Notes under the pieces: generated by a model
What the model was told of the DNA's origin: nothing
Databases searched by the model: none
Seen by the model: the letters and a program-made list of their open reading frames with translations, nothing else
Translations under genes and position numbers: made by a program
Shown here: positions 44,490 through 57,104 of the stretch, piece after piece
Position numbering within the stretch: the first letter of the stretch is position 1
Layout: every line of letters begins with the position of its first letter
Assembly: GCF_023705585.1 (NCBI RefSeq)
Contig: NZ_BOQE01000001.1
Location: forward strand, 2,760,710-2,824,709
Reading direction: 5' to 3'
Source of the DNA: Collibacillus ludicampi
Lineage (GTDB): Bacteria > Bacillota > Bacilli > Tumebacillales > BOQE01
DNA length: 64,000 nucleotides

Positions 44490-44655
44490 TTTCTCTTATC
44501 CAGAGAGGCGGAGGGACTGGCCCAATGAAGCCCGGCAACCCGTTTTGTGTGGATAACACAAAACATGGTGCCAATTCCTGCGGATGTGAATCCGGCAGAT
44601 GAGAGCGAACGTAGGATAGTTACGCCCTTTTCCATGCCGGAAAAGGGTTTTTTCT
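44490..44655 (+). promoter_or_regulatory. SAM-I (S-box) riboswitch with terminator
   Basis: The S-box core is complete: CTCTTATCCAGAGAGGCGGA, GGGACTGGCCC, ATGAAGCCCGGCAACC, GGTGCCAATTCC and the closing GATGAGAG (to about 44606). CCCTTTTCC (44625-44633) and GGAAAAGGG (44639-44647) with TTTTTT form the terminator. High SAM should stop transcription before metN. Confidence 0.97.
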
Positions 44656-44693
44656 TGTTCAATATGAAGGGTAAGGGGAGGTACAGGATTGTA

Positions 44694-45725
44694 TTGATAG
44701 AGCTCATCAATCTTACGAAGGAATATCGATCGGGAAAACAATCGATTACCGCTTTGAAACATATCAATCTGCAAATTCACGAGGGGGAAATCTTCGGAAT
44801 CATTGGTCACTCGGGTGCGGGTAAGAGTACGTTGATCCGTTGTATCAACCTGCTTGAACGGCCAACATCCGGAGAAGTGGTTGTCGATGGCGTTAATTTG
44901 ACGGCACTCTCTCCATCTGAGTTACAAGCGAAACGCCGTTCGATCGGAATGATTTTTCAACATTTTAACTTGCTTTCATCGGCAACTGTGTTCGACAATG
45001 TTGCTTTTCCATTAAGACTCGCAAAAAGGCCGAAATCTGAGATTAAAGAAAAAGTGGATCGTTTGCTGCAACTCGTAGGTCTAGAAGCGCATAGCCACAA
45101 GTATCCGGCACAGCTTTCCGGAGGGCAAAAGCAAAGGGTCGGTATCGCGCGGGCGCTCGCTAACGACCCGAAGGTTTTGCTGTGTGATGAGGCGACTTCT
45201 GCGCTCGATCCGCAGACGACACAATCTATTCTCGATCTTCTGGTTGATATTAACCGAAAACTTGGTATTACAATCGTTTTGATCACACATGAAATGCATG
45301 TCATCCGCGCGATCTGCGACCGCGTTGCGGTGATCGATGGCGGAAATATCGTTGAATTGGGTAAAGTGGCCGAAGTATTCTTGAACCCGCGTCAGGATGT
45401 GACACGCGAATTTATTGCTCAGATCATTGAAAGCGAATTTGACCGTACGATCCTGCAAGAAACCCAAAAGGCTCATCATGAAACAAATGGAAATCGTCGG
45501 GTGGTTCAAGTCTCGTTTCTTGGCGCTTCCACATATGAGCCCATTTTATCGCGTGTGACCCAAACGCACGGTGTACACTTTAATATTTTACACGGAACGA
45601 TTTCCCGGATGAAAGATGTACCTTATGGCCGACTGGTTCTTGAGTTGATCGGTTCACCGGAGTTGCTCGATGTTACGATTCGAGATTTGATCGCTAATCA
45701 CTTGGAGGTGGAGGTGATCGGATGA
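44694..45725 (+). CDS. metN: Methionine ABC transporter ATP-binding protein
   Basis: A 343-residue ATPase of the D-/L-methionine importer. Walker A GHSGAGKST near residue 38, Q-loop MIFQHFNLL, signature LSGGQKQRVGIA, Walker B LLCDEATSAL, H-loop ITHEM, and a C-terminal NIL (ACT-like) domain (about 265-343) that senses methionine. The start is TTG at 44694, matching family N-termini and 11 bases after GGGGAGGT. Longer in-frame starts would read through the riboswitch terminator and are rejected. Confidence 0.95.
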   Translation: MIELINLTKEYRSGKQSITALKHINLQIHEGEIFGIIGHSGAGKSTLIRCINLLERPTSGEVVVDGVNLTALSPSELQAKRRSIGMIFQHFNLLSSATVFDNVAFPLRLAKRPKSEIKEKVDRLLQLVGLEAHSHKYPAQLSGGQKQRVGIARALANDPKVLLCDEATSALDPQTTQSILDLLVDINRKLGITIVLITHEMHVIRAICDRVAVIDGGNIVELGKVAEVFLNPRQDVTREFIAQIIESEFDRTILQETQKAHHETNGNRRVVQVSFLGASTYEPILSRVTQTHGVHFNILHGTISRMKDVPYGRLVLELIGSPELLDVTIRDLIANHLEVEVIG

Positions 45726-46378
45726 TGGAAAACGTGGTTTGGAGCGAAATTCTGCAAGCTTCCTATGAGACGTTGTACATGGTCGCATTATCGACAATAT
45801 TTACAGTCATCATAGGGCTACCACTAGGTATTATCTTAGTTTTGACATCGAAAGGACATCTGCTTGAGAACAGGACAGTTTACCAATTATTAGCTCTCAT
45901 CGTAAACATCTTTCGTTCCATACCGTTTATCATCTTGCTGATTCTGCTGATCCCATTTACCAAATTGATCGTCGGTACATCGATTGGTGTGGATGCAGCC
46001 ATTCCGCCGCTTGTTATCGGAGCGGCTCCGTTCTTCGCCCGGCTGGTGGAAACAGCGTTGAGAGAGGTGGATCGCGGGGTGATTGAAGCGGCCCAATCGA
46101 TGGGGGCAACTACTTGGCAGATCATTTGGAAAGTTCTGCTCCCGGAAGCGCGTCCAGGTCTTATTGCCGGTATCACGATAACAACCGTTTCTCTCGTCGG
46201 TTACTCGGCCATGTCGGGCGTGATTGGAGGTGGCGGTCTTGGAGATCTCGCTGTGCGTTATGGTTATCAAATGTTCCAGACAGATGTCATGTTGATAACG
46301 ACCGCCATCATGATTGTCATGGTACAAGTCTTTCAAACGATGGGCGATAAGCTCGTCTTAAAATATACGCGCAAATAA
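45722..46378 (+). CDS. metI: Methionine ABC transporter permease
   Basis: A 218-residue permease with five hydrophobic helices and the binding-protein-dependent transport signature EAAQSMGATTWQIIWKVLLP near residue 122, the EAA loop that contacts MetN. It starts at the ATG overlapping the metN stop by 4 bp, after GGAGGTGATCGG, which suggests translational coupling. Confidence 0.95.
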   Translation: MMENVVWSEILQASYETLYMVALSTIFTVIIGLPLGIILVLTSKGHLLENRTVYQLLALIVNIFRSIPFIILLILLIPFTKLIVGTSIGVDAAIPPLVIGAAPFFARLVETALREVDRGVIEAAQSMGATTWQIIWKVLLPEARPGLIAGITITTVSLVGYSAMSGVIGGGGLGDLAVRYGYQMFQTDVMLITTAIMIVMVQVFQTMGDKLVLKYTRK

Positions 46379-46406
46379 CTTAAAAAAAGAAAGGGAGTTG
46401 TTATGT

Positions 46407-47240
46407 ATGTTGAAGAAAAAATGGTTATTACCCGCAGCATCTCTCGTACTCGCGATGTCATTGACGGCTTGTGGCCAAGCGAAGAAAGATGAAGCCGCTC
46501 CCACAAAAGACAGCGGCAAAGAAGTGACCTTGAAGGTCGGAGCAAGCGCTGTGCCACACGCGGAAATTCTCAATTACATCAAGCCTAAATTGAAGCAAGA
46601 AGGCGTCGAATTGGATGTAAAAGTATTTAATGACTACGTACAGCCGAATATTCAGTTGAATGAAAAACAATTGGATGCAAACTTCTTCCAACACATTCCT
46701 TATCTTGAGCAATTCAATAAAGATCACAATATGAATCTTGTTGATGTTGCGAAGGTTCACATTGAACCGATGGGTGTCTACACGAAAAAGGGTGAAGATA
46801 TCAAAAAGGTGAAAGATGGCGCGACGATCAGCGTGCCCAACGATGCGACAAACGAAGGACGTGCGCTGAAGTTATTGGAAAAAGCAGGAGTATTTCAGTT
46901 GGATGATACCAAAGGATACAAAGTGACGCCGAGCGATATTAAAGAGAATCCGCATCACGTTCAGATCAAGCCTTTGGAAGCTGCCATGCTGCCGCGCACA
47001 ATCGACGATGTAGATTTTGCGGTGATCAACACCAATTACGCGCTTCAAGCGAATTTGAACCCAACGAAAGATGCTGTATTCATTGAAGGGAAAGATTCGC
47101 CATTCGCGAACGTTTTAGTCACGCGTCAAGACAATAAAGATTCGGAAGCTATCAAGAAGCTGGTTCAAGAATTGAACAGCCCTGACGTGAAGAAATACAT
47201 TGAAGACCATTACAAAGGTGCGATTGTACCTGCATTCTAA
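46407..47240 (+). CDS. metQ: Methionine-binding lipoprotein MetQ
   Basis: A 277-residue NLPA-family substrate-binding lipoprotein. Signal peptide MLKKKWLLPAASLVLAMS with lipobox LTAC (acylated Cys22), a charged linker, then the binding domain with VPHAEILNYIKPKLKQ, DANFFQHIPYLEQFN and NYALQANLNP, all typical of MetQ. It binds methionine outside the membrane for MetNI. AAAGGGAG is 9 bases before ATG 46407. A terminator follows. Confidence 0.95.
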   Translation: MLKKKWLLPAASLVLAMSLTACGQAKKDEAAPTKDSGKEVTLKVGASAVPHAEILNYIKPKLKQEGVELDVKVFNDYVQPNIQLNEKQLDANFFQHIPYLEQFNKDHNMNLVDVAKVHIEPMGVYTKKGEDIKKVKDGATISVPNDATNEGRALKLLEKAGVFQLDDTKGYKVTPSDIKENPHHVQIKPLEAAMLPRTIDDVDFAVINTNYALQANLNPTKDAVFIEGKDSPFANVLVTRQDNKDSEAIKKLVQELNSPDVKKYIEDHYKGAIVPAF

Positions 47241-47383: not shown

Positions 47384-49159
47384 TTACTTCCAAGAAATCT
47401 TGTATTTTTTCAGCTTGTAATTCAAATTTTGTCGTGAGATTCCTAAAAGCTCACTGGCTTTCGTAATATTACCTTTTGCTTCTTTTAGAGATTGTTCAAT
47501 CATTAAGCGTTCCAGCTTTTCTATTTGTTCCGGCAAGTTCCATCCAGATCGAAGGTGACCCTCAGGAGTCGACAAAGGATGAGACTGTTGCATCCTCTTG
47601 CATTTGAATGTTGGAGGCAGTTGTTCAAAGGAGATGGTTCTTTCATCATAAATCAAATTAAGAGCACCCTCAATGGTATGTTCCAGTTGCCTTACGTTTC
47701 CTGGCCAATGATAGTCGAGAAAAAAATGGTAAACATCATCGTCGAGTCCGTCCACCCGTACTCCCAAAGCATCCGAATGCTTTTTTATAAAATGATCGAT
47801 CAAAATGGGAATGTCTTCTTTTCTCGAACGTAAAGGCGGGATGACAAGATTGACAACCCCTAAACGATAATAGAGATCTTCCCGAAGCTTTCCATTCGCT
47901 ATAGCCTCAAGTGGATCTTCGTTCACAGTTGCGATCACGCGCACGTCGATCTCTATGATTTTCGAGGATCCTAGTCTTTGGATTTTCTTCTCTTGTAAGG
48001 CGCGAAGCAGTTTCGCCTGCAAATTCGTGCCAATGGAGTTGATTTCATCGAGCAGTAAAGTTCCTCCGTTTGCCTGCTCAAACAATCCAGCACGATCCTG
48101 AGCTCCCGTGAAACTTCCGACGCTTGTCCCAAACAACAATCCTTCCAACAAAGATTCAGGTAGAGCCGCGCAATTTTGCGCGATAAAAGGTTTATGTTTA
48201 CGAGGACTCTCATTATGAATACTTTGAGCAAACAGTTCCTTTCCCGTACCTGTTTCACCATAAATGAGAATATTGGAATTGGAGCGTGCCGCTCTTCTGG
48301 CCTGTTCCACTGTTTTTGCCATGGAACGGCTTGCAAAAATAATACTCTCAAATGTAAACCGCGTATTGTTAGATTTAGCGGATGTTGCAATGGGAGCGTT
48401 CGATCCGTTTTTTCCGTCTCTTTGTTGCAATTGCAGGATGGTTTCTTTTAACTGTTTTTGTTCAGTGATGTCCTTCGCGACTTCCAATGCTCCTACTTTT
48501 TTATTACCTAAGTAGAGAGGAACCGTCTTGTAAAGTGTAGTTACCGCTTTTCCGTTTGTGGAGAAGTGGGTCTCACGGTGACTGAGAGTTCGCCCCGTTT
48601 TGAATGCGGTGAGCAGTGTGCTCGAGTTTTCGTCAATGTTCCAGACGTCCACAACCCTTTTGTTGCGTACCGATTCAGGCTCCAACGTGTCGATTTCTCC
48701 CATTTTTTTATTGTAAAACAGAACGGTTCCTTGTTGGTCGATGGCGCAGATCCCCTCTTCCAGATAGTCTAAGATCGTGTCGTACAATTGACGGATCATG
48801 TTCATTTGCTGTAGTTGTTGCTGCAATTGTTGAGTATCTGTGATGTTTTTAATAGTTATCAGATATCCCGGATAATCGGAACTCGACCGTATCACCGTAA
48901 GGTTTGCAATGAGCTGTTGAGTTCCTAGAGAGATGGAGATCCCCGTCTTGTCTTGACGCGTTTGGAATACTTTTTTAAATTCTTGTGACGGGATGAGTTC
49001 AAAAATGGAAACGCCAATCAGACGGCTTGGACTTGAGGAAAACAAACGTGCAGCTGTCCGATTGAGAGAAAGAATCTCCCCCTCCGAGTCGGTGAGAACC
49101 ATACAATCAAAATTTGAGTTCCACACTTGTTGCAAAGAAAGAGCGGGGAAATTGTCCAT
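47384..49159 (-). CDS. Sigma-54-dependent transcriptional activator with two PAS domains
   Basis: A 591-residue regulator of the RocR/BkdR type. PAS domain 1 (about 8-110, NFDCMVLTDSEGEILSLNR), PAS domain 2 (about 122-235, LEEGICAIDQQGTVLFYN), a sigma-54 AAA+ core (about 268-500) with Walker A GETGTGKE, Walker B GGTLLLDEI and the sigma-54 contact loop as GSFTGA (usual form GAFTGA), and a Fis-type HTH at the C-terminus (about 550-588, NITKASELLGISRQNLNYKL). It has no receiver domain, so the PAS domains probably sense a small ligand. GGAGGTGATC precedes the ATG. It is divergent from the amidohydrolase operon, and a palindromic site lies just before its start. Confidence 0.93.
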   Translation of the reverse strand: MDNFPALSLQQVWNSNFDCMVLTDSEGEILSLNRTAARLFSSSPSRLIGVSIFELIPSQEFKKVFQTRQDKTGISISLGTQQLIANLTVIRSSSDYPGYLITIKNITDTQQLQQQLQQMNMIRQLYDTILDYLEEGICAIDQQGTVLFYNKKMGEIDTLEPESVRNKRVVDVWNIDENSSTLLTAFKTGRTLSHRETHFSTNGKAVTTLYKTVPLYLGNKKVGALEVAKDITEQKQLKETILQLQQRDGKNGSNAPIATSAKSNNTRFTFESIIFASRSMAKTVEQARRAARSNSNILIYGETGTGKELFAQSIHNESPRKHKPFIAQNCAALPESLLEGLLFGTSVGSFTGAQDRAGLFEQANGGTLLLDEINSIGTNLQAKLLRALQEKKIQRLGSSKIIEIDVRVIATVNEDPLEAIANGKLREDLYYRLGVVNLVIPPLRSRKEDIPILIDHFIKKHSDALGVRVDGLDDDVYHFFLDYHWPGNVRQLEHTIEGALNLIYDERTISFEQLPPTFKCKRMQQSHPLSTPEGHLRSGWNLPEQIEKLERLMIEQSLKEAKGNITKASELLGISRQNLNYKLKKYKISWK

Positions 49160-49176: not shown

Positions 49177-49192
49177 CGAAAAATATTTTGCG
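49177..49192. promoter_or_regulatory. Upstream activator site 1 (candidate)
   Basis: CGAAAAATATTTTGCG, a near palindrome 18 bp upstream of the activator's own start codon. Its complement recurs at 49315. Suited to autoregulation. Confidence 0.6.
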
Positions 49193-49296: not shown

Positions 49297-49329
49297 CGAA
49301 AAATATTTTTCAATCGCAAAATATTTTTC
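49297..49329. promoter_or_regulatory. Upstream activator sites 2 and 3 (candidates)
   Basis: CGAAAAATATTTTTC (49297-49311) and CGCAAAATATTTTTC (49315-49329) lie 65-97 bp before the sigma-54 promoter, the usual place for activator binding. A further ACGAAAAAAAATATTTCG adjoins at 49281-49298. Confidence 0.62.
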
Positions 49330-49393
49330 TGTTTCTCTAACAAAGACATCTTTGTTTTCAAGGAAAAAGATAAACATAAGAAATTTTGAATAG

Positions 49394-49409
49394 TGGCATG
49401 ATTATTGCT
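49394..49409 (+). promoter_or_regulatory. Sigma-54 (-24/-12) promoter
   Basis: TGGCATGATTATTGCT has the GG and GC pairs exactly 12 bases apart and matches TGGCAC-N5-TTGCW at all but one consensus position. It lies 38 bp before the amidohydrolase start. Confidence 0.88.
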
Positions 49410-49446: not shown

Positions 49447-50598
49447 ATGAGCGGTGTCTCATTACGAGATGTTCAAGCGATTGATGTTCACTGTCACCCT
49501 TACGTTGCAAATCCGAATCCCTATACGCCGGAGGAATTTGTAAAAAAACTATCGTTATCCGTTATCCCATCCAGCGGTTTAAAAACGAATGAGCGAAACA
49601 AGAAACATCCTTACCCTGGTACCAACATGTGGGTTCAGATTCTGATCAACCGATTGGCCAAATATTACTCGTGTGCGCCTGAACTTGAAGAAGTCGTCAA
49701 GCAAAGGAATGTACGAACCGCTGATTTTCGCGAATATACCAGAGAACTGTTTCGTGATGCGAACATCATCGGTTTAGTGATGGATTTTGGGTATCCCTCT
49801 CCACCGTTGGACAAGAAAGAATATACCGATCTTTGCGGAGTACGTATATGGGAAATCTATAGGATCGAACCTGTTATGGCCCGGTTACGAGGGGAATGTA
49901 ATAGCTTTGGAGAGTTCGTCGAAAAATACAGAGCGGATCTGCGGGGGGCATTAAAAAAAGAGGAAATTGTCGGGTTAAAGTCGATTATTGCTTACCGGAG
50001 TGGCTTGCAAATATCTGAAAAGAACGAAGCTGCGGCAAACGAGCAATGGGAGGAATTTTTGGCAAACGAACGGGCAGAAGTAAAAGCTATAAGGGATTAT
50101 TGTCTGCATGTTGCAATGGAGGAATGTACCGAGGCTGAAAAAGTTATGCATATTCATACGGGTATAGGGGATGGAGATGTGATCCTTGATAAAGCGAGCC
50201 CCAGCTTTCTGTTTCCGCTATTAAGGAAATACTCGGATACCCAAGTACACCTTGTGCACGGAGGATACCCATGGATGGAGGAAGCTGCTTTTATCGTGAG
50301 CGTTTTGCCGAATGTTTACATGGATATATCTTTGCAAAACCCGTTTGCAGGACATGGAGTAGAAAGAATTCTCTCGCAAGTATTCGAATTCGCTCCGTTT
50401 GACAAAGTCATGTACGGATCGGACGCTTTTACGGTGCCGGAAATGAATTGGATGGGTGTACACCTTTTTAAGGAGTGCTTTGAAAAAGTGTTAAATTCCT
50501 GGATCGCTTCGGATTATATGGATGTCGAAACAGCACAGGCCATTGGTGAGATGGTACTGTATCGCAACTTCGAAAATGTATATCGGCCATTCTTTTAA
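49447..50598 (+). CDS. Amidohydrolase, FluG N-terminal-domain-like (PF04909 family)
   Basis: A 383-residue TIM-barrel metal hydrolase. Ligand motifs: AIDVHCHPY (HxH near residue 13), MHIHTGIGDGD near 237, VHLVHGGYPWMEEAAF near 268 and YGSDAFTVPE near 323. This pattern and length resemble the N-terminal half of fungal FluG and related bacterial amidohydrolases. GGAGG lies before ATG 49447. First gene of a sigma-54-driven operon with a permease, an M20 hydrolase and a glutamine-synthetase-like ligase. It may hydrolyse a gamma-glutamyl or other amide, which is an inference. Confidence 0.83.
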   Translation: MSGVSLRDVQAIDVHCHPYVANPNPYTPEEFVKKLSLSVIPSSGLKTNERNKKHPYPGTNMWVQILINRLAKYYSCAPELEEVVKQRNVRTADFREYTRELFRDANIIGLVMDFGYPSPPLDKKEYTDLCGVRIWEIYRIEPVMARLRGECNSFGEFVEKYRADLRGALKKEEIVGLKSIIAYRSGLQISEKNEAAANEQWEEFLANERAEVKAIRDYCLHVAMEECTEAEKVMHIHTGIGDGDVILDKASPSFLFPLLRKYSDTQVHLVHGGYPWMEEAAFIVSVLPNVYMDISLQNPFAGHGVERILSQVFEFAPFDKVMYGSDAFTVPEMNWMGVHLFKECFEKVLNSWIASDYMDVETAQAIGEMVLYRNFENVYRPFF

Positions 50599-50615
50599 GA
50601 AAGAAGGGATAAAGG

Positions 50616-51956
50616 ATGTCCATTGAACAATTTGGTTATAAGCAAGAGTTGAAGCGAGCTTTGACATTTGGAGATCTATTGATTTACGGCCTGATTTATC
50701 TTGTTCCTATCGCTCCGTTTGGCGTTTTCGGGTATGTTTCTGACGCTTCCAAAGGGATGGTCGCTTTAGCTTATACCATAGGTATGATAGGAATGATTTT
50801 TACAGCGCTCAGTTACGCGTGTATGTCCGAGGCATTCCCGATTGCAGGATCCGTCTATTCCTATGCCCAGAGAGGGATTCATGAGTACGTTGGATTTATC
50901 GCAGGTTGGGCCATTCTTCTCGATTACATTTTGATACCCGCTCTGATTTATCTGGTCAGTGCGGTTTCCTTAACCGCATTCATCCCCGGATTGCCCTTAT
51001 GGTTCTGGTTGGTTTTCTTTATATTGCTCAATACGGCGATTAATACCCGCGGCGTGGAATTTACGGCAAAAGCCAATAAGATTACGCTTGTGCTTGAATT
51101 GATTGTTTTGGCCATATTCATTGTCTTTGGAGTCATTGCTTTACAAAAAGGTGTCAATAACACAAGCTTTTCCATGAAACCATTGTATGATGCCAACCAG
51201 TTTAACTTCTCGACGCTGATGGGAGCGGTATCGATTGCAGTTTTATCCTTTTTAGGGTTCGATGCAATCTCTACCCTGTCGGAAGAAGTGCAAGGGGGTA
51301 AAAAAGCTGTTGGCCGGGCAACCATTCTTTCCCTTCTCATTGTAGGAATCCTCTTCATCATTCAAACCTGGATTGCCAGTGACCTAGCGAAGGGCATCAA
51401 AATCGAAAGCCTTGATACGGCTTTCTATCAAGTGGCGGAATTAGCCGGTGGAAGTTGGCTCAAGACATTGACCAGTTTGGCAACGGCTTTTTCTTGGGGA
51501 ATTGCCAGTGCATTGGCCTCACAAGCGGCGATTTCTCGTTTGTTGTTTTCCATGGGGCGAGACCGCAAGCTGCCAGCCGTACTTGGAAGGATTCATCCAA
51601 AATACCGAACTCCTTATATCAGTACGTATTGTGTGGCGGTTATCTCTTTCATTATTGGGATTATTTTTCAAAATCATATTGATATTCTGACCAATATAGT
51701 AAACTTTGGAGCGTTGACTGGATTTTTCTTGCTGCACATTTCTGTGATTTGTCACTACGTAATTCGCAAAAGGTCGAAGCATTATTTTAAACATCTGATT
51801 TCCCCGCTTCTCGGACTGACAGTCATCGGATACGTGCTATATGGAATGGATGCTTTGGCAATAAAAGTCGGGATATGCTGGCTCCTCATCGGAGGTATCT
51901 ATCTATTCTTTAGGAGCAAGGTGAAGCATGATAAGCCGATTTCGTTTGATTTTTAG
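50616..51956 (+). CDS. APC-superfamily amino acid/amine permease
   Basis: A 446-residue permease with about 12 membrane helices. The first helix has the APC signature (DLLIYGLIYLVPIAPFGVFGYVSD); helix 2 to 3 has YACMSEAFPIAGSVYSYAQRG. Helix 6 has FLGFDAISTLSEEV, a substrate-site motif. This looks like the PuuP/YkfD part of the family. It likely imports the substrate of the operon. It begins 17 bp after the amidohydrolase stop. Confidence 0.88.
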   Translation: MSIEQFGYKQELKRALTFGDLLIYGLIYLVPIAPFGVFGYVSDASKGMVALAYTIGMIGMIFTALSYACMSEAFPIAGSVYSYAQRGIHEYVGFIAGWAILLDYILIPALIYLVSAVSLTAFIPGLPLWFWLVFFILLNTAINTRGVEFTAKANKITLVLELIVLAIFIVFGVIALQKGVNNTSFSMKPLYDANQFNFSTLMGAVSIAVLSFLGFDAISTLSEEVQGGKKAVGRATILSLLIVGILFIIQTWIASDLAKGIKIESLDTAFYQVAELAGGSWLKTLTSLATAFSWGIASALASQAAISRLLFSMGRDRKLPAVLGRIHPKYRTPYISTYCVAVISFIIGIIFQNHIDILTNIVNFGALTGFFLLHISVICHYVIRKRSKHYFKHLISPLLGLTVIGYVLYGMDALAIKVGICWLLIGGIYLFFRSKVKHDKPISFDF

Positions 51957-51968
51957 GAGGAAAGTAAG

Positions 51969-53147
51969 ATGGAATCAGTAGAATTGCAGGAATCGCTTGT
52001 TCAGCAACTTTATCAGATCAGAAGACATCTCCACCAATATCCTGAGCTTTCCTTTCAGGAATTTGCGACATGCGACTTTCTTTGTTCCCGTTTAAATGAA
52101 TGGGGGATACCTTATAAAAGAGTAGGGGATACAGGGGTGGTGGTCGATATCGTCGGAGAAAATGGGAAAGGTCTACATATTGGACTGCGGGCCGATATGG
52201 ATGCACTCCCTATCCAGGAAAAAACCGGTCTCCCTTTTTCCTCACTGAACAATGGAGTCATGCATGCCTGCGGGCATGACGGGCACATGACGATTTTGCT
52301 TGGAACGGTATATCAACTCTATCAGCGCAAAAACATGTTTCGTGGTAGGGTACGTTGTATATTTCAGCCAGGAGAAGAAGCGGATGGAGCGGCTGAAAAG
52401 ATGATTGAACAAGGTGTACTCAGTCATCCTCCAATCGATGAAATGCTGGCTCTGCATCTATGGCCGCACCTTCCATTTGGGACAGTAGGTGTGAGATACG
52501 GAGCTATGACTGCCTCTTGTGATACATTCGCGATTGAAATTGAGGGAAAAGGAGGGCATAGTGCCAGACCGCATCAAGCGATTGATGCGATCGCAGTCAG
52601 CGGGAATGTTTTGCAAGGAATTTCTTACCTCGTCATGAAAGAAACGAACCCTGTTGATCCGGTTGTTGTACATGTTGGAAAAATACTGGGAGGTACAGCT
52701 ACAAATATCGTAGCCGATCGAGTCATAATGGAGGGAACCACAAGAGCGGTTTCCAAGGAGACGAGAGAGAAGGTGAAAGAACGTCTCGTTGAACTCGTAG
52801 AACAGATGGTTACTTCTTTTGGTGCGAAAGCCAAGGTGACTTATTCAGAGGGCCACCCTCCGGTCATCAACGATCGAGAAGTTACAAGGGCATTCGTGGA
52901 ATCTGTAGAAGAGTTGTTGGGGGCCGAAGCCGTACACATATTGACGGAGCCGTCGATGGGAGCGGATGATTTTGGCGCTTTCGCCGAAAGGGTTCCTAGT
53001 ACTTATTTTCGTTTGGGGATCTGTCGAGAAGGTGTGCCATGCCATGATTTGCATCACCCAGCTTTTCAATTTGATGAAAAGATCATTCCGCTCGGTGTAA
53101 AGATTTTGACCCATAGCGTATTCAAACGTCTAACAGAAGGAGTGTAG
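51969..53147 (+). CDS. M20-family amidohydrolase (aminoacylase/IAA-hydrolase type)
   Basis: A 392-residue M20D-type metallopeptidase: IRRHLHQYPELSFQEF start, GLRADMDALPIQE and HACGHDGHMTILLG (metal Cys and His), QPGEEADGAAEKMIEQG, a lid domain with GGHSARPHQAIDAIA, and PSMGADDFGAF. Such enzymes cut N-acyl amino acids or other amide conjugates. GGAGGAAAG precedes the ATG at 51969, 12 bp after the permease. The substrate is probably related to that of its operon neighbours. Confidence 0.9.
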   Translation: MESVELQESLVQQLYQIRRHLHQYPELSFQEFATCDFLCSRLNEWGIPYKRVGDTGVVVDIVGENGKGLHIGLRADMDALPIQEKTGLPFSSLNNGVMHACGHDGHMTILLGTVYQLYQRKNMFRGRVRCIFQPGEEADGAAEKMIEQGVLSHPPIDEMLALHLWPHLPFGTVGVRYGAMTASCDTFAIEIEGKGGHSARPHQAIDAIAVSGNVLQGISYLVMKETNPVDPVVVHVGKILGGTATNIVADRVIMEGTTRAVSKETREKVKERLVELVEQMVTSFGAKAKVTYSEGHPPVINDREVTRAFVESVEELLGAEAVHILTEPSMGADDFGAFAERVPSTYFRLGICREGVPCHDLHHPAFQFDEKIIPLGVKILTHSVFKRLTEGV

Positions 53148-53155
53148 ATGGCGGT

Positions 53156-54502
53156 ATGACGTCAATGGAAAAGGTATTAGAAATCGTAGAAAAAGAGAAA
53201 ATCGAATTCATACGCATCGAATTTTTAGATTATGCCGGGATAACCAGAGGCAGAACGATCCGTCCAGCTGAACTAAGAAGTGCAATGGAGAAGGGGATCA
53301 ACTTCAGTACGGCTATCATGAGTTTTGATTCCATGGATGAATATATTCCAAATCCAACTTACGGCCCGAATGACGGTGACTTTTTTGCAGTTCCTGACCC
53401 CGAAACCTTTGCCATTGTACCCTATCGAAAAAATACGGCGCGAATGATTTGCGACCTGGTGGATGAAAACGGAGAACCTTGGGAAGGATGCCCGAGACAG
53501 GCTTTGAAGCGTCTTCTCAACGAAGTGGAATCACTTCTTGGCGGGAAAATGTATCTAGCATTTGAACAAGAAGCGTATTTGCTGAAAGAAGTGAACGGGA
53601 ATCTGCAGCCTGCCGATCAGAGTCATTGTTTCTCAATTGACGGGGTGGATGTACAGGAAGATTTTCTTCAGGAGGTCGTATATTCACTCGAAGCGATGGG
53701 AGTAAAAACCGAGCAGATCTCAAGTGAATACGGCCCGGGACAGTTGGAAATCAATTTGAAATATGCTCCGGCTTTAAAAGCCACTGACGACCAGGTGACG
53801 TTTGCGCAGGTATTTAAGCAGGTTGCGAGAAACAAAGGGATGATAGGTACTCTGATGCCGAAGCCATTTCAGCATTTGGCAGGCAGTGGATTGCATGTCC
53901 ATATCAGTCTGTTTGACCCATCAGGGGAAAATCTGTTTGAAGATATTACGGATCAACGGGGATTGGACATGTCTGACAAAGCTTATCATTTTATCGGCGG
54001 AATTCTCAAGCACGGCCCTTCATTAATTGCGATCGGGGCACCTAGCGTGAATTCGTACAAAAGGATGCAGCCCGGTTCATGGGCTCCCGCCCACATCTGT
54101 TATGGTGCAGGAAACCGGTCGGTTCTGGTGAGAATTCCGGAGAAGCGTAGGACAAGACGTTTTGAATATCGAGGTGCGGATGGGACTTGCAATCCTTATC
54201 TGCTTGCCGCATGTTTGGTAGCGGCTGGACTCCATGGAATCCAAAATCGGATGGATCCGGGTGATCCGATCGATATTGATGTAAGCAAGATGAGCGAGAT
54301 GGAATTAAAAGAAAAGGGAATTACGTGGGTTCCGCGAAATCTTAGTCAGGCCATCGATCATCTAGCGGAAGACACGATATTGGCGGAAACGATTGGCCGT
54401 TCCATTTGGGAAGAGTTCATCAAGATAAAAAGGACGGAATGGGACAAATTTAACAGACATGTTAGTGATTGGGAACTCCGGCTGTTATCTTCGAGATTTT
54501 AG
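53156..54502 (+). CDS. Glutamine synthetase-like gamma-glutamylamide ligase
   Basis: A 448-residue glutamine-synthetase-fold enzyme. Beta-grasp N-terminus with FLDYAGITRGRTIRP; the catalytic domain has FEQEAYL near 140, GQLEINL near 197, SGLHVHISL near 244, NSYKRMQPGSWAP near 300 and RGADGTCNPYLLAA near 340. The sequence follows the PuuA/FluG C-terminal/GlnA3 branch, and not true GlnA. It lacks the GlnA N-terminal and adenylylation regions. Expected reaction: ATP-dependent joining of glutamate to an amine. No binding site strong enough to choose between ATG 53156 and 53165. A terminator follows. Confidence 0.87.
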   Translation: MTSMEKVLEIVEKEKIEFIRIEFLDYAGITRGRTIRPAELRSAMEKGINFSTAIMSFDSMDEYIPNPTYGPNDGDFFAVPDPETFAIVPYRKNTARMICDLVDENGEPWEGCPRQALKRLLNEVESLLGGKMYLAFEQEAYLLKEVNGNLQPADQSHCFSIDGVDVQEDFLQEVVYSLEAMGVKTEQISSEYGPGQLEINLKYAPALKATDDQVTFAQVFKQVARNKGMIGTLMPKPFQHLAGSGLHVHISLFDPSGENLFEDITDQRGLDMSDKAYHFIGGILKHGPSLIAIGAPSVNSYKRMQPGSWAPAHICYGAGNRSVLVRIPEKRRTRRFEYRGADGTCNPYLLAACLVAAGLHGIQNRMDPGDPIDIDVSKMSEMELKEKGITWVPRNLSQAIDHLAEDTILAETIGRSIWEEFIKIKRTEWDKFNRHVSDWELRLLSSRF

Positions 54503-54512
54503 AGAGGTTCCT

Positions 54513-54545
54513 AAGCTCCCGTTGTTTCGACGGGGGCTTTATCTT
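54513..54545 (+). terminator. Terminator of the sigma-54 operon
   Basis: AAGCTCCCGT, loop TGTTTCG, ACGGGGGCTT, followed by TATCTTTTCC. Confidence 0.78.
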
Positions 54546-54760
54546 TTCCATGTTGCCGGCGCATGCGAGAGTTTCGAACCCCCCATGATTCGCGTAAACG
54601 ATTACTGTGTTAAAGGCATTTATTACATATCTCACGCATACATCAGGGCTGTCGTTGCTATAGCAGATTAATCCACATTTTTATTACTATAAAAATTTTT
54701 AGTCATCGGCTATAATAAAAGTGTTGGAACGACCGTTTGTTTTGGATGGGGAGGTTACCT

Positions 54761-55991: not shown

Positions 55992-57104
55992 TTGATTGTA
56001 CACACCGTACAAAAAGGGGATACCCTCTGGAAATTAGCAAAAAAGTACGGGGTTCCACTTGAATCGATCATCGCTGCCAATCCGCAGTTAACCGATCCAG
56101 ATAAGATCGATGTTGGACAGAAAATCAACATACCGCGTCCAGGAGAGTCGATATCCGGACAACCGACCGTGGAACCACATGCCGGGCATCAACCGCCTTT
56201 CGATGCACATCAACAGGGGCATGTGGAGGCGAAGGAAGAATTTCCGGGGGAGACGGTTCCCGAAATGCCTTCCGTATTACCGGGCGCTCCGGCAGAAGAA
56301 CCGAAGATGCCCATACCAGCAACACCGATGCATACGGCGCCACCATTTACCGGAACAGTTCCGAAGTGGGGACACTTATGGAAATATGTCGTCAAACATG
56401 GCGATACCATGTGGAAAATCGCAAAACAGGTTGGGGTAACACTTGACCAATTAAAGTCTGCGAACCCACAAGTGATGAATCCGGATCACATTATGCCGGG
56501 ACAGGTGATCAATATTCCCTCGCACGGCATGATGGATGGGGCGTCTCATCATCTCTCCATAAAGGAGGAGATGATGCCGAAGGAGAAACTGACGGCGCCA
56601 AAACCGTATGTTTCTTCTGTTCCTAAGGAGAAACTTACCGCGCCGAAAGAAATTGTTCCTCCTTCGATACCTAAGGAGGTGCCATCAATCATGGAGACAA
56701 AACCTTTTAAAATGGAAATTCCAAAAATGGAGGTACCGAAAATGGAAATGCCAAAAATGGAAGTTCCGAAAATGCCGCCTGTTGTGCACCATGCTGCTCC
56801 ACATACGGATATTGTTCAACAACAACTGTTATATGCGCCTCATTACCATCCCGTATATCACCCCATGATGGTCATGCCTATTCACATGGTTCCGCATCAT
56901 GTGTACGAACCTCACAAGAAATGCGGCTGCAAAAAACGGCATCGTAAACACAGATATTCACATTATGTAACTTATTATCATCCCCATCTCATGCCCTACT
57001 ATCCTCATCACGTCCATATGCCCCATCCTCCGATGACGGTACCTCATCCGGTATACCCGAGTTCGATGACATTTCCGGGACGGGAATTCGAAGGGAAAAA
57101 TTAG
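55992..57104 (+). CDS. SafA-like spore coat assembly protein with two LysM domains
   Basis: A 370-residue protein with LysM 1 at about 3-48 (VQKGDTLWKLAKKYGV) and LysM 2 at about 133-178 (VKHGDTMWKIAKQVGV). A Pro-rich linker joins them. A low-complexity C-terminus follows: tandem KEKLTAPK blocks (about 197-220), a PKMEVPKMEMPKM run (about 238-256) and a His/Tyr/Pro-rich tail with CGCKKRHRKHRY. LysM domains bind glycan of the cortex, which suits a coat-cortex anchor such as SafA. The start is TTG at 55992 behind AGAGGAGGGG. CATATACT at 55951 resembles a SigE -10 box. It is followed by a coat kinase gene, reminiscent of spoVID-ysxE. Confidence 0.8.
   Translation: MIVHTVQKGDTLWKLAKKYGVPLESIIAANPQLTDPDKIDVGQKINIPRPGESISGQPTVEPHAGHQPPFDAHQQGHVEAKEEFPGETVPEMPSVLPGAPAEEPKMPIPATPMHTAPPFTGTVPKWGHLWKYVVKHGDTMWKIAKQVGVTLDQLKSANPQVMNPDHIMPGQVINIPSHGMMDGASHHLSIKEEMMPKEKLTAPKPYVSSVPKEKLTAPKEIVPPSIPKEVPSIMETKPFKMEIPKMEVPKMEMPKMEVPKMPPVVHHAAPHTDIVQQQLLYAPHYHPVYHPMMVMPIHMVPHHVYEPHKKCGCKKRHRKHRYSHYVTYYHPHLMPYYPHHVHMPHPPMTVPHPVYPSSMTFPGREFEGKN

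Follow-up and report, generated by a model that had tools for sequence, protein, structure and literature searches.

A sigma-54-controlled operon combining an amidohydrolase with a glutamine synthetase-like ligase in Collibacillus ludicampi: a candidate gamma-glutamylation system

Genes at the locus

A stretch of 64,000 nucleotides of Collibacillus ludicampi DNA (positions 2,760,710–2,824,709 of contig NZ_BOQE01000001.1, referred to as the window) was analysed. The host genome is 4.09 Mb in size. Within the window, genes for an amidohydrolase (AH), a permease, a second amidohydrolase of the M20 family (M20) and a glutamine synthetase (GS)-like ligase form an operon, and the gene of a sigma-54 activator is divergent from it. 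The features are as follows (window coordinates).

47384–49159 (−): activator, PAS-PAS-AAA+(sigma-54)-Fis helix-turn-helix (PF00989/PF13426, PF00158, PF02954), divergent
49177–49192: enhancer-like dyad CGAAAAATATTTTGCG, 0 mismatches to the degenerate pattern
49297–49312: enhancer-like dyad CGAAAAATATTTTTCA
49315–49330: enhancer-like dyad CGCAAAATATTTTTCT
49394–49409 (+): sigma-54 promoter TGGCATgattaTTGCT (−24/−12) before the AH start (genome 2810103–2810118)
49447–50598 (+): AH (Amidohydro_2), ATG start preceded by a GGAGG site
50616–51956 (+): APC-superfamily amino acid/amine permease
51969–53147 (+): M20 amidohydrolase
53156–54502 (+): GS-like, putative gamma-glutamyl amine ligase, ammonium site lost
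54513–54539 (+): intrinsic terminator, 12-pair stem and T-rich tail

The four genes are all on the + strand and are separated by 17, 12 and 8 nt. The terminator follows the last of them, and thus the acyl-CoA dehydrogenase gene at 54737 is a separate unit. A TTG at 49405 in the list of open reading frames (ORFs) was considered as the AH start and rejected as too far upstream; the ATG with the GGAGG site is preferred. Within the cluster, to which this search was confined, there is no gene for an oxidase, an aldehyde dehydrogenase or another dehydrogenase of the polyamine type. An earlier sequence-only reading of the window had placed and typed all four genes correctly, and had described one intact operon under its own sigma-54 activator with two PAS domains, a ligase suited to an amine other than ammonia, and the absence of the usual polyamine-pathway dehydrogenases. 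The present analysis agrees with each of these points, the last within the cluster, and adds the promoter and the enhancer-like dyads.

Promoter and activator sites

The activator carries a Walker motif (GETGTGKE) and a GSFTGA loop, and RpoN (sigma-54) is encoded in the genome. The promoter TGGCATgattaTTGCT matches the sigma-54 consensus at 10 of 11 positions, a score reached by no shuffled sequence. In the upstream regions of the window and its 42 relatives, a sigma-54 motif scoring at least 9/11 was found in 26 of 43. Three copies of the dyad CGAAAAATATTTTTCG lie between the activator gene and the promoter. An AAA+ activator with a GAFTGA-type loop, a −24/−12 promoter, upstream sites and RpoN, the components of enhancer-dependent sigma-54 control, are therefore all present.

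The dyad is also frequent in the relatives. With up to three mismatches, 54 copies were counted in 26 orthologous regulator/AH intergenic regions; shuffles that preserve the dinucleotides gave 0.64 on average and 4 at most. The consensus was picked by eye from the same regions, so this test is not independent of its data; the excess is large even so. Five exact matches occur in the whole genome when both strands of the palindrome are counted, and four of these represent the three operon sites. The fifth (C1:3959146) was rejected as a second target because it sits inside an ABC-transporter gene. No other credible dyad cluster was found in the genome. According to the distribution of the exact matches, the activator looks dedicated to the AH-permease-M20-GS operon.

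The GS-like ligase

The ligase matches PF00120 with 357 bits. Its best NCBIfam model is the gamma-glutamylputrescine synthetase (NF045547), with 408.7 bits, under the cut-off of 650. The ammonium site of GS (D50/S53/Y179) is replaced by S/I/C in the window ligase and in every main operon orthologue examined. In the site table, the glutamate, metal and arginine sites are unchanged. The flap residue E327 is aligned with W, which is also found in the methylamine ligase. The window genome's own GlnA retains D/S/Y at the ammonium site. Other ligases without the site carry P/V/V (PuuA), A/A/C (methylamine ligase 9qur) and V/N/A (PA5508), and the Chloroflexi ligases carry A, N or D, and M. The residue pattern of the window ligase is that of organic-amine ligases, and amine-dependent activity is predicted from it.

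In Siminovitchia and Pseudogracilibacillus (L075, L077 and L089), each locus has two GS-like ligases, 57–62% and 73–74% identical to that of the window. The second copies have F or Y/M/C at the ammonium site versus S/I/C. These differing residues suggest that the paired ligases may take two amine substrates.

The amidohydrolase, M20 and the permease

The AH belongs to the Amidohydro_2 family of TIM-barrel metal hydrolases. The metal- or catalytic-type residues H15, H17, K178, H237, H271 and D326 are kept in all orthologues. Its sole PDB match is 2QPX (29% identity), and both fall in the 2QPX/FluG-N superfamily; the activity of 2QPX has not been established (PMC6478659). The trees of the AH and of the ligase, which are small, were built with FastTree only and include the PDB sequences as aligned parts only, each place the homologues of the Bacilli operon, of the Chloroflexi and of the FluG type in groups of their own. 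The matching groups suggest that the AH and the ligase may have been partners over a long time. In the ligase tree, PA5508 joins the FluG-type ligases of L051 and L052 (support 0.995), and the window clade is apart from them; PuuA is also outside the window clade. FluG itself is not in the tree.

M20 scores 365.9 bits with TIGR01891 (cut-off 153.75) and belongs to the subfamily of aminoacylases, indole-3-acetic acid (IAA)-amino acid hydrolases and YxeP. It has the motifs HACGHDGH and QPGEE. Its PDB relatives include 1ysj, 1xmb and 6slf, and the closest are YxeP, ILL2 and an N-alpha-acyl-glutamine aminoacylase. For M20 enzymes of this kind, the amino acid part of the substrate must have its carboxylate free.

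In the operon family, the permease slot is held by two unrelated-looking types, about 23% identical to each other, and the window has the minority type. The permease type correlates weakly with the presence of the pyridoxal phosphate (PLP) enzyme gene described below (Fisher p 0.03–0.09, the genomes being related).

Conservation of the operon

When the GTDB species genomes were scanned, 65 AH loci were obtained, 42 of them in Bacilli. The carriers include Brevibacillus, Aneurinibacillus, Neobacillus, Peribacillus, Sporosarcina and Staphylococcus pettenkoferi. Among the 42 Bacilli loci, the permease is present in 37, M20 in 38, the ligase in 39 and the activator in 34, and the exact order AH-permease-M20-GS is kept in 29. 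The conserved order indicates that the four-gene unit is real; scattering of the genes in relatives, which the sequence-only reading had named as a result that would overturn its account, is not what the loci show. Several of the remaining loci are interrupted, decayed or ended by a contig edge. A strong AH match was obtained in 17 of 398 evenly drawn Bacilli genomes, including the window's own, and thus the operon is sporadic.

Simpler and different versions exist. The Staphylococcus pettenkoferi group (L091–L094) has a minimal AH-M20-GS set, without the permease, the sigma-54 activator and the PLP gene. L080 and L082 keep the AH, permease and GS without M20. In Chloroflexi metagenome-assembled genomes (MAGs), a LIV-type ABC transporter, the PLP gene, GS and AH occur together; the order in L097 is LIV-type ABC-PLP-M20-GS-AH, with M20 of another subfamily. 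Long ORFs resembling AH-GS fusions in three of these MAGs (L101, L111 and L116) were rejected as probable out-of-frame overlaps, a partial GS domain being present in L101 only.

Decay of the operon was observed in L081, L071 and L082. Brevibacillus thermoruber retains the activator and the AH, and the other three genes are gone from the locus. One Brevibacillus MAG among these has two copies on different contigs, interrupted by opposite-strand ORFs.

Additional genes in the relatives

A class-III PLP enzyme gene is adjacent in 23 of the 42 Bacilli loci, in most cases immediately downstream of the gene of the activator. In the PDB, its product matches alpha-amino-epsilon-caprolactam (ACL) racemase and amino acid amide racemase best, with 373–406 bits; a gamma-aminobutyric acid (GABA) transaminase scores about 228. 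The full-length Bacilli copies that were read have the catalytic D210 (QSDGG) and K241 (DEVK); for L063 and L071 the motif script gave no reading of K241, and in L096 this residue was seen in the alignment. The entries 5m4b and 5m4d seem to differ at both positions in the alignments. Alpha-amino lactams, amides and homocysteine thiolactone are substrates of ACL racemases (PMC11391342). The gene (E <= 1e-100) was found in 5 of the 398 Bacilli genomes, in all five beside the operon. In addition, a class-I glutamine amidotransferase (GATase) with the GxCxG motif is encoded near the ligase in 12 loci. These two additional genes, which a reading of the window alone could not show, lead away from a simple polyamine pathway of the Puu/Pau kind.

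The PLP gene is a short fragment or split in L056, L058 and L089, and the split L089 copy reads DEVR. This suggests that in some carriers the gene is decaying or was sequenced with errors.

Proposed pathway and alternatives

A general gamma-glutamylation scheme is likely, according to the ligase residues and the gene context. The PAS-PAS activator would respond to an inducer, bind the observed CGAAAAATATTTTTCG dyads and fire the −24/−12 promoter. The permease would import a compound bearing an amino group. The GS-like enzyme would then couple the amine of this substrate to the gamma-carboxyl group of glutamate with ATP, as its residues predict. The AH, as a metal-dependent TIM-barrel hydrolase, would open an amide, lactam or lactone. 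Finally M20, from a family that removes N-acyl groups from amino acids whose carboxylate is free, would release glutamate and an amino acid. In many relatives, the racemase-like PLP enzyme would also epimerise an alpha-amino amide, lactam or (thio)lactone, and the class-I GATase would supply a further gamma-glutamyl hydrolase or take the place of the existing one.

The substrate class comes mainly from the relatives. The substrates of ACL racemases, together with the free carboxylate needed by M20, lead to a protect-open-deprotect model. In this model, the family substrate would be an alpha-amino acid amide, lactam or (thio)lactone, and the gamma-glutamyl group would be a temporary N-protection; we regard this part as doubtful. 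A full protect-racemise-hydrolyse-deprotect route in the operon family, in which an ACL-type racemase feeds in both enantiomers and M20 or the GATase removes glutamate, is more doubtful still. With the guess of amide, lactam or (thio)lactone included, the proposal as a whole is that the operon serves catabolism or salvage by way of gamma-glutamylation and is induced by its substrate; it is put forward tentatively, as falling a little short of probable.

Several points weigh against this proposal. The AH is called a hydrolase by its family only, and the Amidohydro_2 family also holds decarboxylases. The racemase identity of the relatives' PLP enzyme likewise follows from family membership, which is not proof. 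The PLP enzyme has no orthologue in the window genome, where the best of eight class-III genes compared is 37% identical; thus, the racemisation step there would be missing or unneeded. A close GATase was also searched for in the window genome, and none was found.

The main rival is amine or polyamine catabolism of the Puu, Pau or GlnA3 kind, because polyamines induce glnA3 of Streptomyces coelicolor and its Amidohydro_2 neighbour SCO6961 (PMC5403932). Here the ligase would glutamylate a diamine or monoamine, the class-III enzyme of the relatives would transaminate the free end, a dehydrogenase encoded elsewhere would oxidise the aldehyde, and the AH, M20 or GATase would hydrolyse gamma-Glu-GABA-like intermediates. 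The top NCBIfam model of the ligase also fits this explanation, its score being below the cut-off, and APC permeases transport polyamines in some systems. However, the window cluster contains neither a PuuB-type oxidase nor an aldehyde dehydrogenase, and the scan of recurrent neighbours in the relatives identified neither. Moreover, the PLP enzyme scores with racemases and carries their Asp/Lys pair, and PuuA and PA5508 branch apart from the window ligase clade. We consider this explanation rather unlikely, about as much so as the substrate class suggested above.

Use of N-acyl amino acids or auxin conjugates, with M20 as the entry enzyme and the ligase handling the released amine, would fit the PDB neighbours of M20. 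However, M20 is absent from L080 and L082, and in the Chloroflexi GS-AH is accompanied by an M20 of another subfamily or by no M20. M20 therefore looks less central than the AH and GS, and this explanation seems improbable, below even the full racemising route. It is also conceivable that the operon, like FluG, which holds the same two-domain combination, makes a gamma-glutamyl metabolite that acts as a signal in development or sporulation and is not catabolic. LSEI_0440 and PA5508 restore function in a fluG null mutant (PMC6478659). The sporadic distribution, the dedicated inducible promoter and the permease, however, fit nutrient use better, and both halves branch apart from the FluG-type homologues. 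A signalling role is very improbable, and it is the least likely of the explanations considered.

Neighbouring genes

Methionine ABC transporter genes of the metNIQ kind, recognised by eye, lie at 44547–47240 (+). They adjoin the activator gene and are convergent with it, and they do not come up again when the genes of the relatives' loci are clustered. This neighbourhood may be suggestive if the substrate is homocysteine thiolactone, but it may also be due to chance. The protein encoded at 55992–57104 (+), judged by eye only, has two LysM-like segments and a long tail rich in Met, Pro and His; it is probably a spore-coat or envelope protein.

Comparison with known systems

Every part of the operon is of a known kind. 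In the glnA3-SCO6961-SCO6960 cluster of Streptomyces coelicolor, a GS-like amine ligase is likewise beside an Amidohydro_2 gene, likely co-transcribed and inducible (PMC5403932). In contrast to the window family, M20, the permease, the sigma-54 activator and the racemase-like PLP gene are not reported there, the two systems being compared by description and not by sequence. The E. coli puu operon shares a ligase without the ammonium site (PuuA) and, with some relatives, a GATase-fold hydrolase (PuuD). The window cluster differs from it in lacking PuuB-, PuuC- and PuuE-type genes and in having sigma-54 control, with the AH and M20 instead. The Puu-type set of oxidase, aldehyde dehydrogenase and gamma-Glu-GABA hydrolase does not occur in it. 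The sequence-only reading's other refuting case, a match to a characterised operon, is found for the AH-ligase pair and not for the five- to seven-gene unit.

Fungal FluG and plant NodGS are fusions of the same superfamily pair, and FluG-N resembles 2QPX. There the two parts are one fused chain, whereas here they are two ORFs with the permease and M20 between. The window AH and ligase branch apart from the FluG-type bacterial pair, FluG itself not being aligned. The name 'split FluG' given by the sequence-only reading is therefore apt at the superfamily level; closer than that it does not hold, as the AH is only distantly related to 2QPX and the ligase is outside the PA5508/FluG-type clade. 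Separate bacterial homologues of both FluG halves have already been published (PMC6478659; the glnA3-SCO6961 pair in PMC5403932). Adjacency of bacterial GS-like and amidohydrolase genes is on record in PMC6478659, which cites Strong 2003 and Iyer 2009. The literature searched gave no account of the composition of up to seven genes, of the set of sigma-54 enhancers or of the link to a racemase; the Iyer 2009 amidoligase survey may already list the gene set.

As for the best solved relatives of the PLP enzyme, the ACL/amino acid amide racemases (EC 5.1.1.15 family), the Asp and Lys are kept in the relatives' enzyme, and no such gene is in the window genome. No natural role for ACL-type racemases is stated in the literature searched, and what the amidohydrolase half of FluG-type proteins does as an enzyme is not known (PMC6478659). 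If the protect-racemise-hydrolyse-deprotect route is true, it would give a natural pathway for ACL-type racemases and 2QPX-type amidohydrolases, and would hint at the function of the N-terminal half of FluG. A compact, inducible and genetically accessible bacterial operon family ties an AH of the FluG-N superfamily and, in many relatives, a putative ACL-type racemase to a probable gamma-glutamyl ligase, and this makes the question testable.

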